In this document: piece by piece, positions 52,337 through 62,834 of the stretch
Numbering within the stretch: position 1 is the first letter of the stretch
Layout: each line of letters begins with the position of its first letter
Assembly: GCA_013112535.1 (NCBI GenBank)
Contig: JABFGI010000002.1
Span: 186,001 to 250,000, forward strand
DNA: 64,000 bases
Reading direction: 5' to 3'
DNA from: Pseudomonadota bacterium
Lineage (GTDB): Bacteria; Pseudomonadota; Gammaproteobacteria; Eutrophobiales; Eutrophobiaceae
Translations under genes and position numbers: made by a program
Notes under the pieces: generated by a model
The model's input: the letters and a program-made list of their open reading frames with translations, nothing else
The model's database searches: none
Told to the model about the DNA's origin: nothing

Positions 52337-54277
52337 ATGGCTAAGATAGATAACGATCAGATAGATGAAAAAACAATAGATAAAGAGGGGGAAGGAATAA
52401 GCAGAAGGGAATTGATTACTCGTTCTGCCGGTCTGGCTGGATTAGCTGGCGTAGCGGCAACGGCCGGTGGCTTGTCTCTGGCAAATTCTAAATCTGCCTA
52501 TGCGGCATCGACAAAAAACAAGTCACATGTCGCACCAGGTGACCTCGATGAATATTATGGTTTCTGGAGTAGTGGTCAGGCTGGAGAAGTTCGTATACTG
52601 GGCATTCCTTCCATGCGCGAATTAATGCGGATTCCGGTATTTAATCGTTGCAGCGCCTCCGGTTGGGGTCAGACAAATGAAAGTATCAAAATCTTGACAG
52701 AAAACATGCTGCCAGAAACTAAAGAATATTTAAAAGATAAAGGCGGTATATGGCATAACGGTGATGCTCATCATCCGCATATGTCATTTACTGATGGTAC
52801 ATATGATGGTCGTTATCTGTTTATCAATGACAAGGCCAATACCCGGGTTGCACGTATCCGTTGTGATGTAATGAAAGTTGATAAGATAATCGAAATACCA
52901 AATGCCTCGGATATTCATGGCTTACGCCCGCAGAAATTTCCACGTACAGGTTACGTTTTTGCTAACGGTGAACATCGTGTTCCTCTACCAAATGATGGTT
53001 CAATACTGGATGAACCGGAAAAATACCATGCTGTATTTAGTGCGATTGATGGCGATAGTATGAAAGTTGCCTGGCAGGTCATTGTTGATGGAAATCTGGA
53101 TAACTGTGATGCTGATTATCAAGGACTCTATGCCGTATCCACCTGTTATAACTCTGAAAATGGCGTCACCCTCGGTGAAATGACATCCAGCGAACAGGAT
53201 TGGGCGGTCGTTTTTGATATTAAAGCAATAGAGAAAGGCGTGAAAAACGGCGACTTCAAAAAGATGAATGGTGTAGCCGTTCTTGATGGTCGTAAAGGTT
53301 CACCTTATACCCGCTACATTCCTGTATCCAATAGTCCTCATGGCTGTAATACAGCTCCCGATGGTAAACATATAGTTATAAACGGAAAACTTTCTCCGAC
53401 TGTATCCGTAATTGACGTCACCAAATTACCAGATCTGTTCAAGGACAAGATCAAGCCACGTGATGCGATCGTCGCTGAACCTGAATTGGGACTGGGACCA
53501 TTGCATACTGCTTTTGATGGAAAAGGGAATGCATATACCACCCTGTTCCTTGATAGTCAGGCATGTAAATGGAATATTGATAAGGCAATCCGGGCCTATA
53601 ATGGTGAAAAAGTCGATCCAATTCTGGATAAAATAGATGTGCAATATCAACCAGGACACAACCATACTTCTATGGGTGAAACAAAAGAAGCCGATGGTAA
53701 ATGGTTAGTATCTTTGAATAAATTTTCCAAAGATCGCTACATAAATGTTGGCCCATTGAAACCTGAAAATGAACAATTAATCGATATAACAGGTGATAAA
53801 ATGGAAATCGTTCATGACGGTCCTACCTATGCAGAACCGCATGATTGTATCATCGTCCGAACTGACATTGTTAACCCGGCTAAAACCTGGAAACGTGGCG
53901 ATCCAATGTGGGCTGATGCTGAAGCGCAAGCCAAGAAAGATGGTATTAACCTGGTTAGCGATAGTAAGGTTATCCGTGATGGTAACAAGGTTCGCGTTTA
54001 TATGTGGTCTATCGCGCCGAACTTCAGTATGCCTGATTTCACAGTCAAACAAGGGGATGAAGTTACCCTTTATGTGACTAATAATGATCAAATTGAAGAT
54101 CTGACCCATGGTATAACCATAGCCAATTACGGTGTTGCGATGGAAATTGGACCACAACAAACCAGTTCAGTTACCTTTAAAGCAGATCGTCCGGGTGTAC
54201 ATTGGTACTATTGCCAGTGGTTCTGTCATGCATTGCACATGGAAATGCGCGGTCGCATGATGGTTGAACCGGCTTAA
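52337..54277 (+). CDS. nosZ: Nitrous oxide reductase, TAT-exported (clade I)
   Basis: The periplasmic enzyme reducing N2O to N2. The 646-residue chain has a twin-arginine signal ([20 protein letters not shown]), so it is clade I type. CuZ histidines are seen in [45 protein letters not shown] and EPHDC. The C-terminal cupredoxin domain has the CuA motif [17 protein letters not shown] lies 8 bases before the ATG. The next gene, nosD, begins about 10 bases after this stop. No deviation from an active enzyme is seen. Confidence 0.98.
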
Positions 54278-54287
54278 CATCTATTTG

Positions 54288-55544
54288 ATGTTAATATTTT
54301 TAAAAACACAGGCTGTAATACGCGTGTATTGCAGCCTGATGTTTTTATTTAGTCCTGTTTTTGCAACAGCATCTGTTATTGATGTAGCTCCTGGTGTTGA
54401 TTCCCTCAGACAAGCGCTTGTCGAAGCTATGCCCGGTGACACATTGCAACTACAAAATGGTCATTATTCAGGCCCAGTAGTAATAGAACAACGGATTAGT
54501 CTAGTAGGTCAAGCAGATACTATTATTGATGGAGGAATGTCGGGACGAGTCATCACCGTATCAGCTGCTGATGTAATTATTCGTAATATAAAACTACAAC
54601 ATTCAGGTATTGATCTATCAGTTGAAGATAGCGGTATTTTTATAACTAAAGAAGGTGATCGTACACTTATAGAAAATAATCATTTATTAAATAATTTAAT
54701 CGGTATCTATTTGAAAGGACCGGAAGATGTCATTGTAAGAAACAACAAGATTATTGGTCGAAATGATCTGCGCATGAACGAGCGTGGAAATGGAATTCAA
54801 ATATGGAATTCTCCCGGATCAGTTATCGAAAAGAATCAAATTCAATATGGTCGTGATGGAATTTTTGTCAACACCAGTAATAAAAATCGTTTTATAAATA
54901 ATCAATTTCGCGATTTACGATTTGCTATTCATTATATGTATACACATCAAAGCGAAGTGAGTGGAAATATTTCCATTAACAATCATGTCGGTTATGCATT
55001 AATGTATTCAAACAATCTCAAAGTCATTGGTAATTCATCTAAAGGAGATCGTGACCGCGGTATCCTGTTTAACTTTACCAATTATTCCGATATAAAAAAA
55101 AATCGCATACTTGGATCACCGGAAAAATGCGTTTTTATCTATAACTCGAATTTTAATGATATTCATGCAAACCATTTCGAAGCTTGTAATATCGGTATTC
55201 ACTTTACCGCAGGTTCGGAACAAAACAAAATCTGGAAAAACACATTTATTGATAATAAAACACAGGTTAAATATGTAGGAACGCGTCACCTTGAGTGGTC
55301 TCACGAAGGTCAGGGAAATTACTGGAGTGACCATACTGCTTTTGACCTTGATGGTGATAGTGTGGCAGATAAACCATATCGTCCAAATAATCTGGCAGAT
55401 CAAATTCTCTGGCGTCATCCGATGAGTAAAATTCTGCTTAATAGTCCAGTCTTACAGGTATTGCGCTGGAGCCAGTCACAATTTCCAGGTTTACATCCAG
55501 GTGGAGTAACAGATAGTGCACCAATGATGGCACCTTTATTGTAA
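54288..55544 (+). CDS. nosD: NosD, periplasmic copper-insertion protein for NosZ
   Basis: NosD is a right-handed beta-helix protein that, with NosF and NosY, is needed to build the CuZ site. The ATG at 54288 gives 418 residues; a TTG 24 bases earlier would overlap nosZ and is less likely. The signal peptide is ragged (up to about residue 28, FSPVFATAS). The repeats of the CASH/parallel beta-helix type follow (DLSVEDSGIFI, GIYLKGPEDVIVRNNKI, GNGIQIWNSPGSVIEKN). It is followed by nosF after 10 bases. Confidence 0.94.
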   Translation: MLIFLKTQAVIRVYCSLMFLFSPVFATASVIDVAPGVDSLRQALVEAMPGDTLQLQNGHYSGPVVIEQRISLVGQADTIIDGGMSGRVITVSAADVIIRNIKLQHSGIDLSVEDSGIFITKEGDRTLIENNHLLNNLIGIYLKGPEDVIVRNNKIIGRNDLRMNERGNGIQIWNSPGSVIEKNQIQYGRDGIFVNTSNKNRFINNQFRDLRFAIHYMYTHQSEVSGNISINNHVGYALMYSNNLKVIGNSSKGDRDRGILFNFTNYSDIKKNRILGSPEKCVFIYNSNFNDIHANHFEACNIGIHFTAGSEQNKIWKNTFIDNKTQVKYVGTRHLEWSHEGQGNYWSDHTAFDLDGDSVADKPYRPNNLADQILWRHPMSKILLNSPVLQVLRWSQSQFPGLHPGGVTDSAPMMAPLL

Positions 55545-55554
55545 ACTTTCAGAT

Positions 55555-56520
55555 ATGGAACATGTGAACATTACTACGCCCGCATTTATAGATCTACATA
55601 GTGTCAGCAAACATTATCGCCAACACCATGCAATTGATTCATTAGACCTATCCATTAACAAGGGAGAAAGCCTGGCCTTGATTGGACACAATGGCGCAGG
55701 CAAAACAACATTACTCAAACTCATCCTTGGACTTACTCTGCCGGATGCAGGCAGTATCAAAGTAAACGGATTAGTACCTTCGCAAACTTCCGACAGAAAG
55801 AAAATTGCTTTTCTTCCGGAGATTGTTTCCTTTCCTGCTTCAATGACTGGCAGGGAATTAATCACTTTCTATGCAAGACTAAAAGGATGTAAGCAATCAG
55901 AATGCAACCGGCTTTTGAATCTGGTTGGACTAACTGATGCAGCTTCACGAAAAGTAGGTACTTATTCAAAGGGAATGCGACAACGACTCGGTCTGGCTCA
56001 GACATTATTAGGAAAGCCCGATCTTATCTTATTGGATGAACCAACTTCCGGACTTGATCCCTCGTTACGCAAACAGTTTTATAATATTCTTGAAGATTGC
56101 AAATCAGCAGGGACAACAATTCTCATTTCATCACACGCGCTTTCTGAAATCGAAACAAAAACAGATCGTATCGCTATCTTGAAACAGGGCCGACTGGTAA
56201 TACATGGCACGTTGGACGAACTTCGTAATGCAGCAGATCTCTCTGTTCAAATACGCGTTTCAACTCAATCCGGACAAACATCTATTATTATTGATACTCT
56301 CGAGCCAGAAACTTCCTATAGAAAATACAATGATCATTGTATTGAATTCGACTGTCATCGTGATGATAAATTACGTGTATTACAAAATATTTCTAAAATT
56401 CCATCTGGGATCGTTGATATTGAAATTCTTCCGCCACGACTTGATGACCTCTATATTCATTTTGCCGGTGAGGAGAATGATGAATCCTTGAATCCTCAGC
56501 TGACCAACCCTAGATCATGA
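55555..56520 (+). CDS. nosF: NosF, ABC transporter ATPase for NosZ maturation
   Basis: A 321-residue ABC ATPase. Walker A GHNGAGKTT, signature YSKGMRQRLG, Walker B LILLDEPTSGLDP and the switch His in SSHALSEIETKTDR are intact. It drives the NosDFY complex that acts in copper-sulfur cluster assembly in NosZ. nosY would be expected to follow directly, but here a 205-base insert carrying a long hairpin lies between the two genes. Confidence 0.96.
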   Translation: MEHVNITTPAFIDLHSVSKHYRQHHAIDSLDLSINKGESLALIGHNGAGKTTLLKLILGLTLPDAGSIKVNGLVPSQTSDRKKIAFLPEIVSFPASMTGRELITFYARLKGCKQSECNRLLNLVGLTDAASRKVGTYSKGMRQRLGLAQTLLGKPDLILLDEPTSGLDPSLRKQFYNILEDCKSAGTTILISSHALSEIETKTDRIAILKQGRLVIHGTLDELRNAADLSVQIRVSTQSGQTSIIIDTLEPETSYRKYNDHCIEFDCHRDDKLRVLQNISKIPSGIVDIEILPPRLDDLYIHFAGEENDESLNPQLTNPRS

Positions 56521-56598
56521 TTACCTGTTCCAATATGAAATATTATATTGTATTTAATGATAACTCGTTATGCGTTATTGCTTGCCTATTCGATTGCA

Positions 56599-56689
56599 CG
56601 TTTTTCAGGCTCAGTTGCTTGACAGCAAAAGCCTTACGTAGAATAACTATGCTCGGCTTTTTAGTCTGCACAACTGAACCTGAAAAACG
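56599..56689. repeat. Long imperfect inverted repeat between nosF and nosY
   Basis: CGTTTTTCAGGCTCAGTTG (56599-56617) pairs with CAACTGAACCTGAAAAACG (56671-56689), 18 of 19 bases. Inside, GAC/GTC, AAAAGCC/GGCTTTT and CGTAG/CTATG (with one G-T pair) continue the stem to a loop AATAA (56642-56646), so the arms are about 43 bases each. The frames through it code no credible protein. It may be a MITE-like remnant or an RNA hairpin that affects nosY expression. Confidence 0.75.
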
Positions 56690-56725
56690 CACACTCAAAC
56701 ATGCCCAACTAAGTATTCAAGGATT

Positions 56726-57553
56726 ATGAAACCGATATTAATAATGGCTTTGGCAGAAATTCAGGAAAGCATACGTAATCGCTGGATCGTGGCAAGCATT
56801 TTACTATTATTAGTACTTGCAACATCACTTACATTATTGGGGTCAACACCTGTCGGCATAACAAAAGCAAGTCTGTTAAGTGTTACCATGGTTAGCCTGA
56901 CGAGTCTCAGTATCTATCTTATTCCTTTAATCGCATTGATGTTGTCTTTTGACTCAATCGTGGGCGAATCAGAACGAGGCACACTATTACTTTTACTGAC
57001 TTATCCAATTCGACGCTGGCAAATTATTGTCGGAAAATTTTTCGGCCACCTTTCCATTCTTACAATAGCAATACTACTTGGCTATGGCATCGTTGCTCTC
57101 TACTTTGTGTTCGAAGATATAGGTAATACTCAGGAATGGCTTGATTATGTATTAATGATGGCAAGTTCACTTCTACTTGGAGGTGTTTTTATTGCGTTAG
57201 GTTATCTCGTTAGTGTCATTGTTCAACAACGAGCAACTGCGACAGGCATATCTTTAGCGCTATGGCTATTTATTGTTGTTTTTTACGATCTGATATTACT
57301 TGGATTATTACTGGCAGATAAAGCTCATGTCATTCAATCAAAGTTATTAGCTATATTAATTTTATTCAATCCTGCTGATGTATACCGATTATTTAATCTC
57401 ACTGGTTCAGAGACTGCTGCATTGGTATCTGGCATGTCAGGTATGACTCAGGCAGATCTGTTAGCCCCAGCCACATTATTAATAACGTTGACTTTATGGA
57501 TACTTATTCCACTAACATTAAGCATCTATATTTTTAATAAGCGAGAAGTGTAA
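56726..57553 (+). CDS. nosY: NosY, ABC transporter permease for NosZ maturation
   Basis: A 275-residue ABC-2 type membrane protein with about six transmembrane helices. The N-terminal MALAEIQESIRNRWIVASI and the segment FDSIVGESERGTLLLLLTYPIRRWQIIVGKF are the NosY/ABC-2 marks. It forms the membrane part of NosDFY. It starts 205 bases after nosF, instead of overlapping it as is usual, and ends 6 bases before nosL. Confidence 0.94.
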   Translation: MKPILIMALAEIQESIRNRWIVASILLLLVLATSLTLLGSTPVGITKASLLSVTMVSLTSLSIYLIPLIALMLSFDSIVGESERGTLLLLLTYPIRRWQIIVGKFFGHLSILTIAILLGYGIVALYFVFEDIGNTQEWLDYVLMMASSLLLGGVFIALGYLVSVIVQQRATATGISLALWLFIVVFYDLILLGLLLADKAHVIQSKLLAILILFNPADVYRLFNLTGSETAALVSGMSGMTQADLLAPATLLITLTLWILIPLTLSIYIFNKREV

Positions 57554-57559
57554 TTCCAT

Positions 57560-58063
57560 ATGGTAAATAAATTATTTTTCTGTTTTTTTATATCGTTTGT
57601 ATTGGTTGCCTGTGACAGTTCCTCACCAAAACAATCTTATACACCACAAGTTGTAACGCGTGATGCTATAGGATACTACTGCAACATGATTGTTGAAGAT
57701 CATTCAGGACCAAAAGGACAAATAATATTAACCAATAAGGAAAAGGCAATTTGGTTTACATCCATCCGTGATGCCATAGCATTTTCTATGCTGCCAGATG
57801 AACCTAAAAATATTGCGTCATTCTTCGTAACTGCAATGGATGAAGCAGAATGGGAACACCCTGAAGCTCAGGTTGATAACTGGATAAAGGCTCAATCAGC
57901 CTGGTTTGTTATCAATAGCGCGCAACGTGGTGGTATGGGTCAAATGGAGGCCATACCGTTTAAACATAAACAATCTGCAAATAGTTTTATTTCAAAACAC
58001 GGTGGAGAAATATTATCTTATACTGAAATACCAGAAAATTATATTTTGGAAAACACTCATTAA
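57560..58063 (+). CDS. nosL: NosL, outer-membrane copper lipoprotein
   Basis: A 167-residue lipoprotein that delivers Cu(I) for NosZ maturation. The lipobox is LVAC (lipidated Cys about residue 18). The copper site is in the conserved YYCNMIVEDHSGPKGQI segment (Cys and Met), with the later GGMGQMEAIPF as a second conserved patch. It lies between nosY and tatA. The start is preceded by AAGTG; spacing is short but acceptable. Confidence 0.95.
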   Translation: MVNKLFFCFFISFVLVACDSSSPKQSYTPQVVTRDAIGYYCNMIVEDHSGPKGQIILTNKEKAIWFTSIRDAIAFSMLPDEPKNIASFFVTAMDEAEWEHPEAQVDNWIKAQSAWFVINSAQRGGMGQMEAIPFKHKQSANSFISKHGGEILSYTEIPENYILENTH

Positions 58064-58324: not shown

Positions 58325-59632
58325 TTAATGAAACTCTTCTTCGCCTGCTTGAAGGCTTTCTCCATTTTCGGGTTCTTCTGTCTCATCATCTAACTCATCA
58401 TCAGATTCATCTGATTCGTCATCCTCACTAACTTGAGATTTCTCTTCTTTAATCATTGTATATGTATCAGAAGATATGCCTATATGAAAAGCCGCATAGC
58501 CTGGCAACATAAACTGGTTTAATGCTATACCCAGAATGCGGCCATTGAATGGAGCAAGTATTTCAGTTTCTTCAGTCGTTAATGGATTGATGATATGTCC
58601 TAATATGTCATGTTTTTCAACTTTTGAACCGATCTCGACTTTTGAGATGAGAATACCACCACTATTTACTCTAACCCAACGTGAACCATAATAAACGGGT
58701 TGCGGTTCAAACCAGAGACGAAATCTTTTCAGGATATTCAAGTTTCTGATCAAGATGTCAATCGTCTTTATTCCAGACTCTACATACTCTTCCTGTAACG
58801 AACCAGTTTGCCCCATTTCAAATGCGACTGTTGGTATACCTTCACGAGTGGCTGCTGCTCTTAAACTTTTACCGTGTCCTGATTTATGTAGTACTGCTAC
58901 CGATCCAAAATGCCCAACAAACTCACGAACTTTTTCAACATTCATATCAGCTCGCAGCTGTGGCAAATTGTTTCGCTTAAATGAGCCTGTATGAAAATCA
59001 ACAACGTATTCACAGTGATTAATAATTTGTGTAAAAAAACGATCGGCAATTCGAGATGCTGCACTACCATCAGGATTACCGGGGAAATATCGATTGAGAT
59101 CACGTCTATCAGGTAGATAGCGTGTATTACCGGTAAAACCAAATATATTAACAATCGGTACACCAATTACAGTTCCATTAACTTCCATAGGATCAAGATT
59201 ACGAACAACACGCCTGACTATTTCAATGCCATTTAGTTCATCACCATGAATAGCTGCGATTAAACAAAGGGTCGGACCGGTCTTAAGTCCTCTGACAACG
59301 AGCACAGAAGGTTTAATTGCTTTTCCGGAAAATGATTGACCTGCAGACCAACTTAGTTCCTTTAATTCACCCGGTTGTACAACATCTTTTAGAATTTTTA
59401 AAGGAGCTTGCTCCACGAATTCAGATGCCAGCTCAACTTTCGCATCTTCATCGTGCTGAGGAAGTGACGTTATCTGCTCTAGATTATTTTCCCTATTTAA
59501 TTCAATCGGTATTTCCGGTGTAATAACTTCTATGTCTCTACTGCCTACTTCTGTAGACAATACATTGAATGACGTTAGCCATAGATTTACAACTAAAAGA
59601 GTGAAAATAAAGCTATAAACTCTGATATTCAT
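58325..59632 (-). CDS. Exported M14-like deacylase (succinylglutamate desuccinylase/aspartoacylase family)
   Basis: A 435-residue zinc hydrolase with an N-terminal signal/anchor (about 5-25). The zinc ligands are in AAIHGDELNGIE (His, Glu) and VDFHTGSF (His); the catalytic Glu is in TVAFEMGQ. A C-terminal beta-barrel (about 300-395) and an acidic, low-complexity tail (SEDDESDESDDELDDE) follow. The family removes acyl or aminoacyl groups from amines. It is the last gene of the four-gene system with ATP-grasp, 7TM and retropepsin-like proteins, 7 bases after the ligase, and could trim what the ligase makes; this is inference. Confidence 0.88.
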   Translation of the reverse strand: MNIRVYSFIFTLLVVNLWLTSFNVLSTEVGSRDIEVITPEIPIELNRENNLEQITSLPQHDEDAKVELASEFVEQAPLKILKDVVQPGELKELSWSAGQSFSGKAIKPSVLVVRGLKTGPTLCLIAAIHGDELNGIEIVRRVVRNLDPMEVNGTVIGVPIVNIFGFTGNTRYLPDRRDLNRYFPGNPDGSAASRIADRFFTQIINHCEYVVDFHTGSFKRNNLPQLRADMNVEKVREFVGHFGSVAVLHKSGHGKSLRAAATREGIPTVAFEMGQTGSLQEEYVESGIKTIDILIRNLNILKRFRLWFEPQPVYYGSRWVRVNSGGILISKVEIGSKVEKHDILGHIINPLTTEETEILAPFNGRILGIALNQFMLPGYAAFHIGISSDTYTMIKEEKSQVSEDDESDESDDELDDETEEPENGESLQAGEEEFH

Positions 59633-59639
59633 ATAATCA

Positions 59640-60581
59640 TTAATGTTCAGAAATTAATTTTACTATTTCTATTCGCTCTTCTGCATTACTCGGCAAAGCC
59701 GTTATGTTATCAATAGCATCAAGTCGATGTTGTAAACCACGTCCATTTGCAATTTGAATTGCAAGCCCGGGGCGAGCGTTTAGTTCAAGCATAAGTGGAC
59801 CGAGCTCTGCATCAAGCACGATATCAACGCCAAGATAACCTAGAGGCGCTAATTCATAACACCGGGCAGATAGTAATAATAAGTTTTGCCAGCCAGGAAT
59901 CTGAATATCACTTAATTTCGAACCGAAATCAGGATGTTCTGCAATACGGCGGTCTTTGCATACTGCTAGCGTCGTAATGCCAGTCGTTAAATGAATTCCT
60001 ACGCCGACCGCACCTTGATGAAGGTTAGCTTTACCATCGGATTGTTGTGTTGGTAAACGCAACATCGCCATAGCAGGAATACCTTTATATATAAGCATAC
60101 GAATATCGGGTACACCTTGATAACTGATCGAATCAAACACAGGATCAAACTTAACGCGATACTCTATGATTGCCTGATCGGGCTGTCCGCCAAGACTATA
60201 AACACCACCTAAAATATTTTCGACATGATGCTTTACTAATTTATTACTAATTGCAGTTCCATTTGGTTTAATAAACAGATCTTTTCGGCGGTTCTCTATA
60301 ACTAAAATACCTTTCCCGCCACTTCCATGAGCAGGTTTAATAACAAAATCTTTTTTATCACCAATAATTTTAGTGATTGAATCCGAGTCATGTATAGTTG
60401 TAATCAAACCATACAACCTGGGAACAGCAATATTTGCTTTTTCTGCAAGTTGTTTTGTTAGTACCTTATCGTCGACGTATTTGTACATCCTCCGAGGATT
60501 ATTAGGCATAACATAACTGTGATTACGAGCATTAATGCCCACTACTCCGGCTTCACGAAGTTTTCGAATTCGACTCAACAT
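59640..60581 (-). CDS. ATP-grasp amidoligase (alpha-L-glutamate ligase-like)
   Basis: A 313-residue RimK-related ATP-grasp enzyme. DFVIKPAHGSGGKGILVI is the ATP-binding loop, and the Mg ligands are in DIVLDAELGPLMLELNARPGLAIQIAN. It should join an amino acid to a carboxylate using ATP; the substrates are unknown. It overlaps the upstream 7TM gene by 29 bases, so it is closely coupled with it. Comparative genomics (Iyer and Aravind, amidoligase systems) has linked such ligases with 7TM inactive transglutaminases and retropepsin-like proteases; no experiments are known to me. Confidence 0.9.
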   Translation of the reverse strand: MLSRIRKLREAGVVGINARNHSYVMPNNPRRMYKYVDDKVLTKQLAEKANIAVPRLYGLITTIHDSDSITKIIGDKKDFVIKPAHGSGGKGILVIENRRKDLFIKPNGTAISNKLVKHHVENILGGVYSLGGQPDQAIIEYRVKFDPVFDSISYQGVPDIRMLIYKGIPAMAMLRLPTQQSDGKANLHQGAVGVGIHLTTGITTLAVCKDRRIAEHPDFGSKLSDIQIPGWQNLLLLSARCYELAPLGYLGVDIVLDAELGPLMLELNARPGLAIQIANGRGLQHRLDAIDNITALPSNAEERIEIVKLISEH

Positions 60582-62124
60582 CTTTAATTTCTTCGTTGGC
60601 TAAATCTTTAAATCTTATTACTTCACTTAATCTGTAACCTGTATATCGTCCAGCCAGAATACATATCGCTAATATCAATAAAAGAAGTTCAGGGAAGCTA
60701 AACATTAAATATTCAAGCTGATCATTCGTCATGACAAAGTAACCAATAACCGCGATAACCAGGCTGCCAAAGCCTTCTTTTATAGCCTCAAATGACCCTG
60801 ACTCTTCCCAGGTAATTGACATACGCTCAATCACCATTGTCAGTATAACTATCGGAAATAGTGCAATAGAAATACCACGATCAATGTCAAGTTCATGACT
60901 TAAAAAACTAATGCCTAACATTAGTATGACAACCATGACTAATACCGCACTGAGTCGCGGCACGAGTATCAGGTTCAAGCGCTCGAGAAGAAAACGAAAT
61001 GTGAGTCCTGCACCAGTAATGAGACAAAAAAGTAAAATACCATATAACAGTTCTGTTTCTCTAAAAGCCAAAGCAATAAGAACGGACATAAAAGTACCAA
61101 AACAGGCAACACCAACAAATGTGCGCATCAAGACAACGACAAGTGCGCCTAAAGGAATCATTAATAATATTTTGTAGACATTTTGTGTAGCAAGCGGCAA
61201 CTTATGTAAAGACCAGGCATTCAAAATAGATTGTTTTTTTTCTGCACGACCTTGAGATATCTCTTCCATAGAAAAAGGTCGTTCTGATAAAGAAAAGCTA
61301 ATGTGTTCGTTTACACCGCCTTCAATATTTAACACAGGAAAATCACCCACGCTCCAACGTAAAAAATTTGGCGGATAACCTTTATTACCTGAAAGAGGAT
61401 CAAAGCCTTCCCAGTGCTGCCCATTATGAATTTCAAGCCATGATATTAACTTTGCATCAGTCGTACCTTCAACGAGACTAATTCCTCTTATCAAACGGGA
61501 AGTAATTTTTGCACCATGAAGAACATAAATAATACGTTTAACCCATTGTTCTGTACCTGGAGTAAATCCTTCTTGAATAACGAGGACATTCTTATTAGGA
61601 GAAGGAGCATTGAGTTGTACCAATAATTGACTGACAAAGGTAAATGTATTTGCAGACTCACTACGAACTTTACCTAATGTGTCTTCAATAGCGGAAGCTA
61701 ACGGTTCTTCATATTCAGGTTTTAAAGGTATAGCAGGCAGTTTATGTTTTTTAGATGATGTTTTTTCAGTAACTTCTTCAGGTACAACTTCTATACGGTA
61801 ATATAACCGTTGTTTACCTTTTGCATTTCGAATAGACCATTCGGCACGACGATCTTTTTTATTGTTTGTAACATTTAGACCGTAATTGCGAGAAATAAAA
61901 AATTCATCCAGTTTTAAAAAGTTTCCTAACTTATCGGGGATATCCAGATTTACGAGTGCGGAACGTCCTAAACCATCAAATTCGACTCGTGCTTCAACAA
62001 TCCAAATTGATGACACCTGATCTGGTACAAGAGGTAAACCCAAAGTTTTAACTTTGGCATACATTAATCCCAGACTGGTACAGACCAGTAGCATACAGAA
62101 TATTTTAACGTTTAGATCGCGCAT
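60553..62124 (-). CDS. Inactive transglutaminase fused to seven membrane helices (UUP1-like)
   Basis: A 523-residue membrane protein. One N-terminal helix (about 8-24) is followed by a periplasmic transglutaminase-like domain (about 35-260; SWLEIHNGQHWEGFDPLSG) which lacks the catalytic Cys-His-Asp set as far as I can see, and then about seven helices (about 300-505). This layout is the UUP1/7TM-transglutaminase family. It is the presumed membrane organiser of the ligase system. It is followed by the ATP-grasp gene with a 29-base overlap and preceded by the protease gene with a 50-base gap. Confidence 0.9.
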   Translation of the reverse strand: MRDLNVKIFCMLLVCTSLGLMYAKVKTLGLPLVPDQVSSIWIVEARVEFDGLGRSALVNLDIPDKLGNFLKLDEFFISRNYGLNVTNNKKDRRAEWSIRNAKGKQRLYYRIEVVPEEVTEKTSSKKHKLPAIPLKPEYEEPLASAIEDTLGKVRSESANTFTFVSQLLVQLNAPSPNKNVLVIQEGFTPGTEQWVKRIIYVLHGAKITSRLIRGISLVEGTTDAKLISWLEIHNGQHWEGFDPLSGNKGYPPNFLRWSVGDFPVLNIEGGVNEHISFSLSERPFSMEEISQGRAEKKQSILNAWSLHKLPLATQNVYKILLMIPLGALVVVLMRTFVGVACFGTFMSVLIALAFRETELLYGILLFCLITGAGLTFRFLLERLNLILVPRLSAVLVMVVILMLGISFLSHELDIDRGISIALFPIVILTMVIERMSITWEESGSFEAIKEGFGSLVIAVIGYFVMTNDQLEYLMFSFPELLLLILAICILAGRYTGYRLSEVIRFKDLANEEIKDVESNSKTS

Positions 62125-62174
62125 CTGAGCAGCATATCAGCTTAACAGTACAAACACGCAATTATATGTGAGGA

Positions 62175-62696
62175 TTACTCCGCATGTAAGCAAGATTTGC
62201 TTGACGTGAATGTTTTTGCCGGATCGACAATCACGTTTTCTTTTAGAGTACGACGCCCTAACAAAAGTGGATAATGGAAACCAGAACGGTCGGCAAGTGT
62301 AACAGGGGTAAGATAGCGTTTTCCATTTAAACAAATTTCGATTTCAACGACATAGCGGGAATTGCTTTCTCCGACATGTTCTTTAATTTTCGTTTCTTTA
62401 ATAACAGGTCTTTCTACCCTTATCTCTCTTTCAACAGCTTGCGTCTTATTTTTTGGTTCGGTGATAGTAAACCTTACCCGAAGTTCATCATCAATCTGGT
62501 ATGGCTCAATATTAGTTGCATGGATAGAACTAGTCAGTGCACCTGTATCAAGTTTTGCCCTTACTTTCATACCCCAAGGTTGAATATAAGCAGTTTCCAG
62601 CCAGCCTAATACTTCAGGTTCCGCATTCACATGAGAATAAATAAAGAATAATAGAAACAGGAAAACAGATCGAAACATTTTTATAATCATTGACAT
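62175..62696 (-). CDS. Exported retropepsin-like protease (RimB/DUF785-type)
   Basis: A protein of about 173 residues. The start is uncertain among ATGs at 62696, 62690 and 62678; all keep the signal peptide (FRSVFLFLLFFIYSHVNAEP). The core has the aspartic-protease motif AKLDTGALTSSIHA, later VEIEICLNGKRYLTPVTLADRS and YPLLLGRRTL, which are the marks of the so-called ATP-dependent zinc protease/DUF785 family that is usually adjacent to RimK-like ligases. A -10-like TATACT overlaps the upstream frame. It leads the four-gene operon. Confidence 0.9.
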   Translation of the reverse strand: MSMIIKMFRSVFLFLLFFIYSHVNAEPEVLGWLETAYIQPWGMKVRAKLDTGALTSSIHATNIEPYQIDDELRVRFTITEPKNKTQAVEREIRVERPVIKETKIKEHVGESNSRYVVEIEICLNGKRYLTPVTLADRSGFHYPLLLGRRTLKENVIVDPAKTFTSSKSCLHAE

Positions 62697-62834
62697 AGTA
62701 TAATTAAGTGCCACTATTGAAACAAAAGTTCATAATTCTTTCCTTCAAAAAAATACCCTTAATATATTGCAATATAAAGGGTAACTTTGTTTTTCAATTC
62801 ATGAAGTAATTCTAATCTTAACGGTCGATATATT

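Follow-up and report, generated by a model that had tools for sequence, protein, structure and literature searches.

An Rlo operon with a fourth component, an exported AstE/AspA-type hydrolase, in a gammaproteobacterial genome

What might a retropepsin, an inactive transglutaminase, an ATP-grasp ligase and an exported zinc hydrolase do together? We considered this question for positions 58325-62696 of a 64,000-nucleotide stretch of a Pseudomonadota genome (GCA_013112535.1, contig JABFGI010000002.1, positions 186,001 to 250,000; hereafter the window), where four co-directional open reading frames (ORFs) are tightly packed on the minus strand. The locus is an Rlo operon with a fourth component. 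Its three-gene core has been known since 2025, when the rloABC operon of Pseudomonas aeruginosa was described (Rlo, retropepsin-like osmotic stress; PMC12239564), and the fourth gene, for which we coin the name rloD here, makes the operon a variant. Judging from its sequence, RloD is exported and has a cytosolic sister hydrolase, which is encoded alongside rimB and rimK; in its occurrence RloD is an optional accessory, yet an Rlo partner, confined to RloB-positive genomes among those searched. We propose, with a probability of about one half, that the four proteins are a writer-and-eraser set for envelope polyglutamate: RloC would ligate, RloB handle, RloA cut the long chains and RloD finish the short ones.

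The published system provides the frame for this proposal. In P. aeruginosa, RloA is a secreted retropepsin that cuts runs of 8 or 10 glutamates and not those of 6 or fewer, cells lacking all three RloA proteases (rloA1-3) do not grow in low salt and show hypo-osmotic lethality, and deletion of rloB or rloC suppresses that lethality; the system controls osmotic and antibiotic tolerance as well as the shape of the cells and their formation of biofilms (PMC12239564). The hypo-osmotic tolerance phenotype and the polyglutamate cleavage are known for P. aeruginosa only; a vesiculation screen in Shewanella vesiculosa also picked up an RloB gene (PMC12096838). A preliminary description of the window knew of related gene sets from comparative genomics but of no assigned product. 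This needs amending in part, in that activities and phenotypes have been published for rloABC (PMC12239564). The window operon matches the published one in three families and in their order (secreted retropepsin, inactive transglutaminase with seven transmembrane helices, ATP-grasp ligase), but adds an exported AstE/AspA-type hydrolase that the latter lacks. Moreover, whereas P. aeruginosa has three RloA paralogues, the window genome has a single secreted RloA-family gene and RimB. An RloD-type hydrolase is not mentioned in the Rim and Rlo literature searched, a search that did not extend to the amidoligase survey of Iyer et al. 2009.

Because of their packing, the four genes appear to form a single transcription unit, as the preliminary description had claimed: rloA and rloB are separated by a 50-bp gap, rloB and rloC overlap by 29 bp, and a 7-bp gap precedes rloD, all on the same strand. 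The gene order is kept in a genome of the same genus (G226, locus L038), whose RloB, RloC and hydrolase are 73-80% identical to the window proteins.

The family assignments were computed here, and Pfam matches were obtained for all four proteins, bearing out the identities given earlier (retropepsin, inactive transglutaminase-7TM protein, ATP-grasp ligase and M14-like deacylase). First, the RloA-like protein (62175-62696, minus strand, 173 aa, with a GTG at 62714 as a possible extended start) matches the retropepsin family Zn_protease PF05618 (1.5e-36), the Rlo structures 9g59 and 9g58 in the PDB, and 2pma. It has a hydrophobic N-terminus, a DTGA motif at residue 50, and Cys122 and Cys169 as in periplasmic RloA; the lysine before DTG, R114 and R137 fall on the corresponding positions of the solved Rlo structures, and K46, R114 and R137 are the basic polyglutamate-binding residues of P. 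aeruginosa RloA. Second, RloB (60553-62124, minus strand, 523 aa) matches Transglut_i_TM PF14400 (6.8e-44) and 7TM_transglut PF14402 (5.6e-95), and is predicted to be a periplasmic inactive transglutaminase domain joined to seven transmembrane helices. When it was aligned with triad-bearing cousins, T191 and I227 were found in place of the catalytic Cys and His, with D242 retained; an AlphaFold2 (AF2) model built from six sequences was poor (predicted local distance difference test, pLDDT, 57). Third, RloC (59640-60581, minus strand, 313 aa) matches ATPgrasp_ST PF14397 (1.1e-87), lies above the TIGR02291 cut-off (428 bits versus 314.2), and is predicted to be a cytoplasmic ATP-grasp ligase resembling alpha-L-glutamate ligases. 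The NCBIfam labels for these three genes are RloA-like, RloB-like and TIGR02291 ligase. Against the narrower models, RloA scores 138.6 bits with NF052264 (RloA3; 1.4e-40), short of the curated cut-off of 210, and RloB matches NF052267 (inact_TG_RloB; 4.1e-121) over its full length with 405 bits, short of 900. Because these cut-offs are not reached, the membership that we assign from such profiles is in the wider Rlo gene set and not in NF052264 or NF052267. Export was called by eye from hydrophobic N-termini, and the localisations described earlier (three exported or membrane proteins and a cytoplasmic ligase) stand on this basis. The reasoning that the set holds enzymes both to make and to remove a linkage is borne out as well.

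RloD (58325-59632, minus strand, 435 aa) carries the AstE_AspA_cat domain (PF24827, 1.5e-39), with the zinc ligands H129, E132 and H214, the carboxylate motif N180-R181 (NR) and the catalytic-type residue E272. None of these varies in a set of 95 exported and 25 rim-type homologues. Four arginines, R220, R227, R258 and R321, are likewise invariant throughout that set, and are absent from DoeB, from 3cdx (where aligned) and from a distant paralogue in the window genome. This suggests a common, probably anionic, substrate of the exported and the rim-type hydrolases.

The rim-type proteins place RloD in a biochemical setting. In the window genome, the third gene of the rimB-rimK operon (L037:4832-7256, contig C7) encodes an RloD paralogue that has no export signal. 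Such a rim-type hydrolase adjoins rimK in 19 of the 20 loci sampled, in 16 of which rimB is also present, and two genomes (L176 and L177) have the rim operon next to the rlo operon, in the order rimB-rimK-hydrolase-rloA-rloB-rloC. In the tree, the rim-type hydrolases form one group with 100% support, and the exported ones are compatible with a single group (approximately unbiased test, p-AU 0.95). RimB and RimK (RimABK) constitute a ribosome polyglutamylation system (PMC11957791, PMC10092738), and because alpha-polyglutamate is the product of RimK and the substrate of RimB (PMC11957791), oligoglutamate is a natural candidate for the substrate of RloD. Like Rlo, the Rim system combines a retropepsin with an ATP-grasp glutamate ligase, and in the window genome its operon also carries the RloD paralogue; unlike Rlo, it is cytosolic, has no RloB and acts on RpsF. 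The Rim papers searched do not mention the rim-type hydrolase. All 17 genomes of one family in the phylum sample (f154) lack both the exported and the rim-type hydrolase; one explanation for the silence of the Rim and Rlo papers is that the hydrolase is absent from the genus studied there. We also noted a third, distant AstE/AspA-like protein in the window genome (L036, contig C2 near 470190-471083), which lies beside another ATP-grasp protein that by eye resembles D-Ala-D-Ala ligase.

How closely is RloD tied to Rlo? We compared their distributions in a class sample of 275 genomes, scoring RloB as present when PF14402 was over its cut-off and RloD when a match reached at least 280 bits. RloD was found in 16 of the 57 RloB-positive genomes and in none of the 218 RloB-negative ones (Fisher 1.8e-12), and one additional, partial RloD gene lies at a contig edge beside rlo (locus L044, genome G036). 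The window's order is represented by one family of 43 genomes, in which RloD occurs in 8/10 RloB-positive and 0/33 RloB-negative members (Fisher 3e-7); these Fisher values ignore relatedness, and the order-level table reflects a single family with patchy presence. About half of the RloD genes of the class sample adjoin rloABC, and the remainder lie elsewhere in the genome (linked loci: L038, L040, L041, L044, L046, L063, L065, L088, L090 and the window). The association extends to unlinked RloD: all 50 genomes picked solely for an RloD away from rlo, including Marinobacter, Alcanivorax, Cellvibrio, Microbulbifer, Nitrosomonas and Steroidobacter, encode RloB. Every genome with RloD is thus RloB-positive (16/16 in the class sample, 8/8 in the window's own family and 50/50 unlinked). 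The treatment of the deacylase as an equal fourth member in the preliminary description has to be revised, because the gene is optional and missing from the published operon, though confined to Rlo genomes. Within the main group of rlo loci no conserved neighbours other than RloD were found, and a search of viral contigs for RloB relatives returned none. Two borderline RloD-like matches of about 245 bits, in G149 (RloB-positive) and G256 (RloB-negative), were set aside as rim-type proteins in rim operons.

These distributions bear on the idea that RloD has a general role in the periplasm, as a deacylase of N-acyl amino acids, and simply accompanies Rlo. The nearest solved structures to RloD, DoeB/EutE and putative AstE/AspA proteins, speak for it; nevertheless, we regard it as very unlikely, since RloD occurs exclusively with RloB, even when unlinked, and since it shares with its rim-type paralogue an arginine signature that DoeB lacks. 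DoeB/EutE itself (N-acetyl-diaminobutyrate deacetylase, 6twl/6twm) has the catalytic fold and zinc motif in common with RloD, but serves ectoine catabolism and is without R220, R227, R258 and R321.

The fold comparison is also the place to weigh a role in the cell wall, in which RloD would be an amidase or carboxypeptidase of the MpaA/Csd4 type and the ligase would supply an amide-linked wall group. An AF2 model of RloD (mean pLDDT 82) matches 3cdx and DoeB with probability 1.00, and the fold search gave E values of 8e-26 for DoeB, 5e-18 for CphZ and 1.9e-8 for MpaA (4axv). MpaA is thus among the weaker matches, and the cell-shape, osmotic and beta-lactam phenotypes of rlo mutants (PMC12239564) would suit a wall substrate. 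We consider a peptidoglycan role improbable all the same: the MpaA match is far below those to DoeB and CphZ, RloD has its closest paralogue in the cytosol, as a product of the rimB-rimK operon, and RloA cuts polyglutamate in vitro (PMC12239564).

The kinship with CphZ bears on the proposed polyglutamate set. The two proteins are about 14% identical in the fold match, and no cyanophycin genes are present in the window operon. The cyanophycin cycle is cytosolic, and its depolymerase has an unrelated fold. CphZ hydrolyses cyanophycin dipeptides, following an ATP-grasp synthetase and a peptidase (PMC10206079). The likeness to the Rlo set therefore lies in the sequence of an ATP-grasp synthetase, a polymer-cutting peptidase and an RloD-fold hydrolase for the short product, whereas the polymer itself is of Asp and Arg. 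By analogy only, CphZ can serve as a precedent for the architecture; it does not imply membership in the same system.

The C-terminal tail of RloD raises a further alternative. In the window protein, the last 40 residues (58325-58444) contain 21 D/E and one K/R, and RloD tails in general are acidic and variable in sequence and length. Glutamate is the C-terminal residue in 53 of 94 RloD proteins (16 of 28 at 60% identity), compared with 76 of 1265 control ORFs (6%) and 1 of 25 rim-type proteins. Such Glu-ending acidic tails hint that RloD itself may be modified. This enrichment favours a scheme in which RloC would polyglutamylate the C-terminus of an envelope protein, possibly RloD, before export, and RloA and RloD would be the long- and short-chain erasers, much as RimB acts on RpsF and eukaryotic M14 carboxypeptidases act on tubulin; post-translational polyglutamylation is also considered by the authors of the Rlo study (PMC12239564). 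We think a protein substrate unlikely, though worth keeping in mind, since no acceptor is known, most RloC genomes lack RloD, and in the lineage of the window RloD terminates in E-x-H, not Glu.

We therefore return to the envelope polyglutamate writer-and-eraser set. We arrive at it because of the family calls, the confinement of RloD to genomes with RloB, its paralogy with the rim-type hydrolase and the arginine signature, all computed here along with the operon, together with the kinship to CphZ, a natural RloB-RloC fusion described below, and the activity and genetic suppression published for RloA. In this model, RloC would ligate glutamate in the cytosol to alpha-polyglutamate, either free or carrier-bound; RloB, at the inner membrane, would take up this product or pass it on; RloA would cut the long chains in the periplasm; and RloD, as an exported zinc exo-hydrolase, would trim glutamate from, or split, oligomers too short for RloA. 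We infer the steps assigned to RloC, RloB and RloD, and the breakdown of glutamate chains is probably the function of RloD. An exported partner found only with Rlo and having a sister in the rim operon narrows the question of the Rlo substrate to a simpler one: does RloD hydrolyse short alpha-glutamate chains?

Several observations weigh against this proposal. RloC and RimK share only about 22-25% identity, and RloC has no counterpart of the N-terminal RimK domain, whose S7, R8, S14, R64 and S68 touch the polyglutamate chain in the crystal structure of RimK; among the equivalents of the polyglutamate contacts, only R189 and N262 are retained. Because that domain is absent, the product of RloC is an inferred one. 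RloD is present in a minority of Rlo genomes (16/57 of the RloB-positive class sample and 8/65 in the phylum sample), and because most rloABC loci lack it, its step is either dispensable or carried out in another way. The co-occurrence counts are phylogenetically non-independent. Finally, N-deacylation by RloD would be just as compatible with its modelled structural kinship to DoeB and AstE.

RloB cousins with an intact triad offer another view of the RloB-RloC unit. Eight loci (L049, L053, L074, L076, L094, L227, L228 and L229) encode an RloB relative with Cys, His and Asp in place (e.g., L049:6065-7690), and PF01841 was found in those scanned. The cousin gene adjoins RloC or, in L074, is fused to it (P0005, 838 aa, L074:6475-8991), a fusion that supports the action of RloC at RloB. 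Next in the cassette come a TPR inner-membrane protein (8/8) and an outer-membrane barrel (6/8), so that the arrangement looks like one for export of the ligase's product. RloA occurs in none of the eight cousin loci, whereas it accompanies canonical dead-triad rloBC in 44 of 47; no PF05618 gene was found anywhere in the cousin genomes G068 and G190, and the sole one of G175 adjoins its rim-type hydrolase. Because intact-triad loci lack RloA and dead-triad loci mostly have it, this small sample suggests that RloA replaced a cleavage step formerly performed by the transglutaminase domain. We speculate, tentatively and with considerable doubt, that some Gram-negative bacteria run an envelope polyglutamate cycle, in which RloC and RloB would deliver alpha-polyglutamate to the periplasm and RloA (long chains) and RloD (short chains) would recycle it, alongside a RimK-RimB-hydrolase set working in the cytosol, and with the intact-transglutaminase cousin, which is without RloA, exporting its product via the TPR protein and the outer-membrane barrel. 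A third type of 7TM-transglutaminase (L047, L058 and L080) has lost the catalytic Cys and has no adjacent RloC; two of these loci, L058 and L080, have a retropepsin gene within 6 kb.

As for the surroundings of the operon, a scan for promoter and terminator consensus sites found them no commoner than in shuffled sequence. Upstream lies typA, set apart by a hairpin with a T-run on the minus strand (62747-62783; fold -12.3 kcal/mol, z -2.43), probably the typA terminator. The gene downstream runs convergent to the operon; by eye, positions 52337-58063 contain a nitrous oxide reductase (nos) cluster comprising nosZ, nosD, an ABC ATPase, a permease and a nosL-like gene, and this cluster is convergent with the rlo operon.
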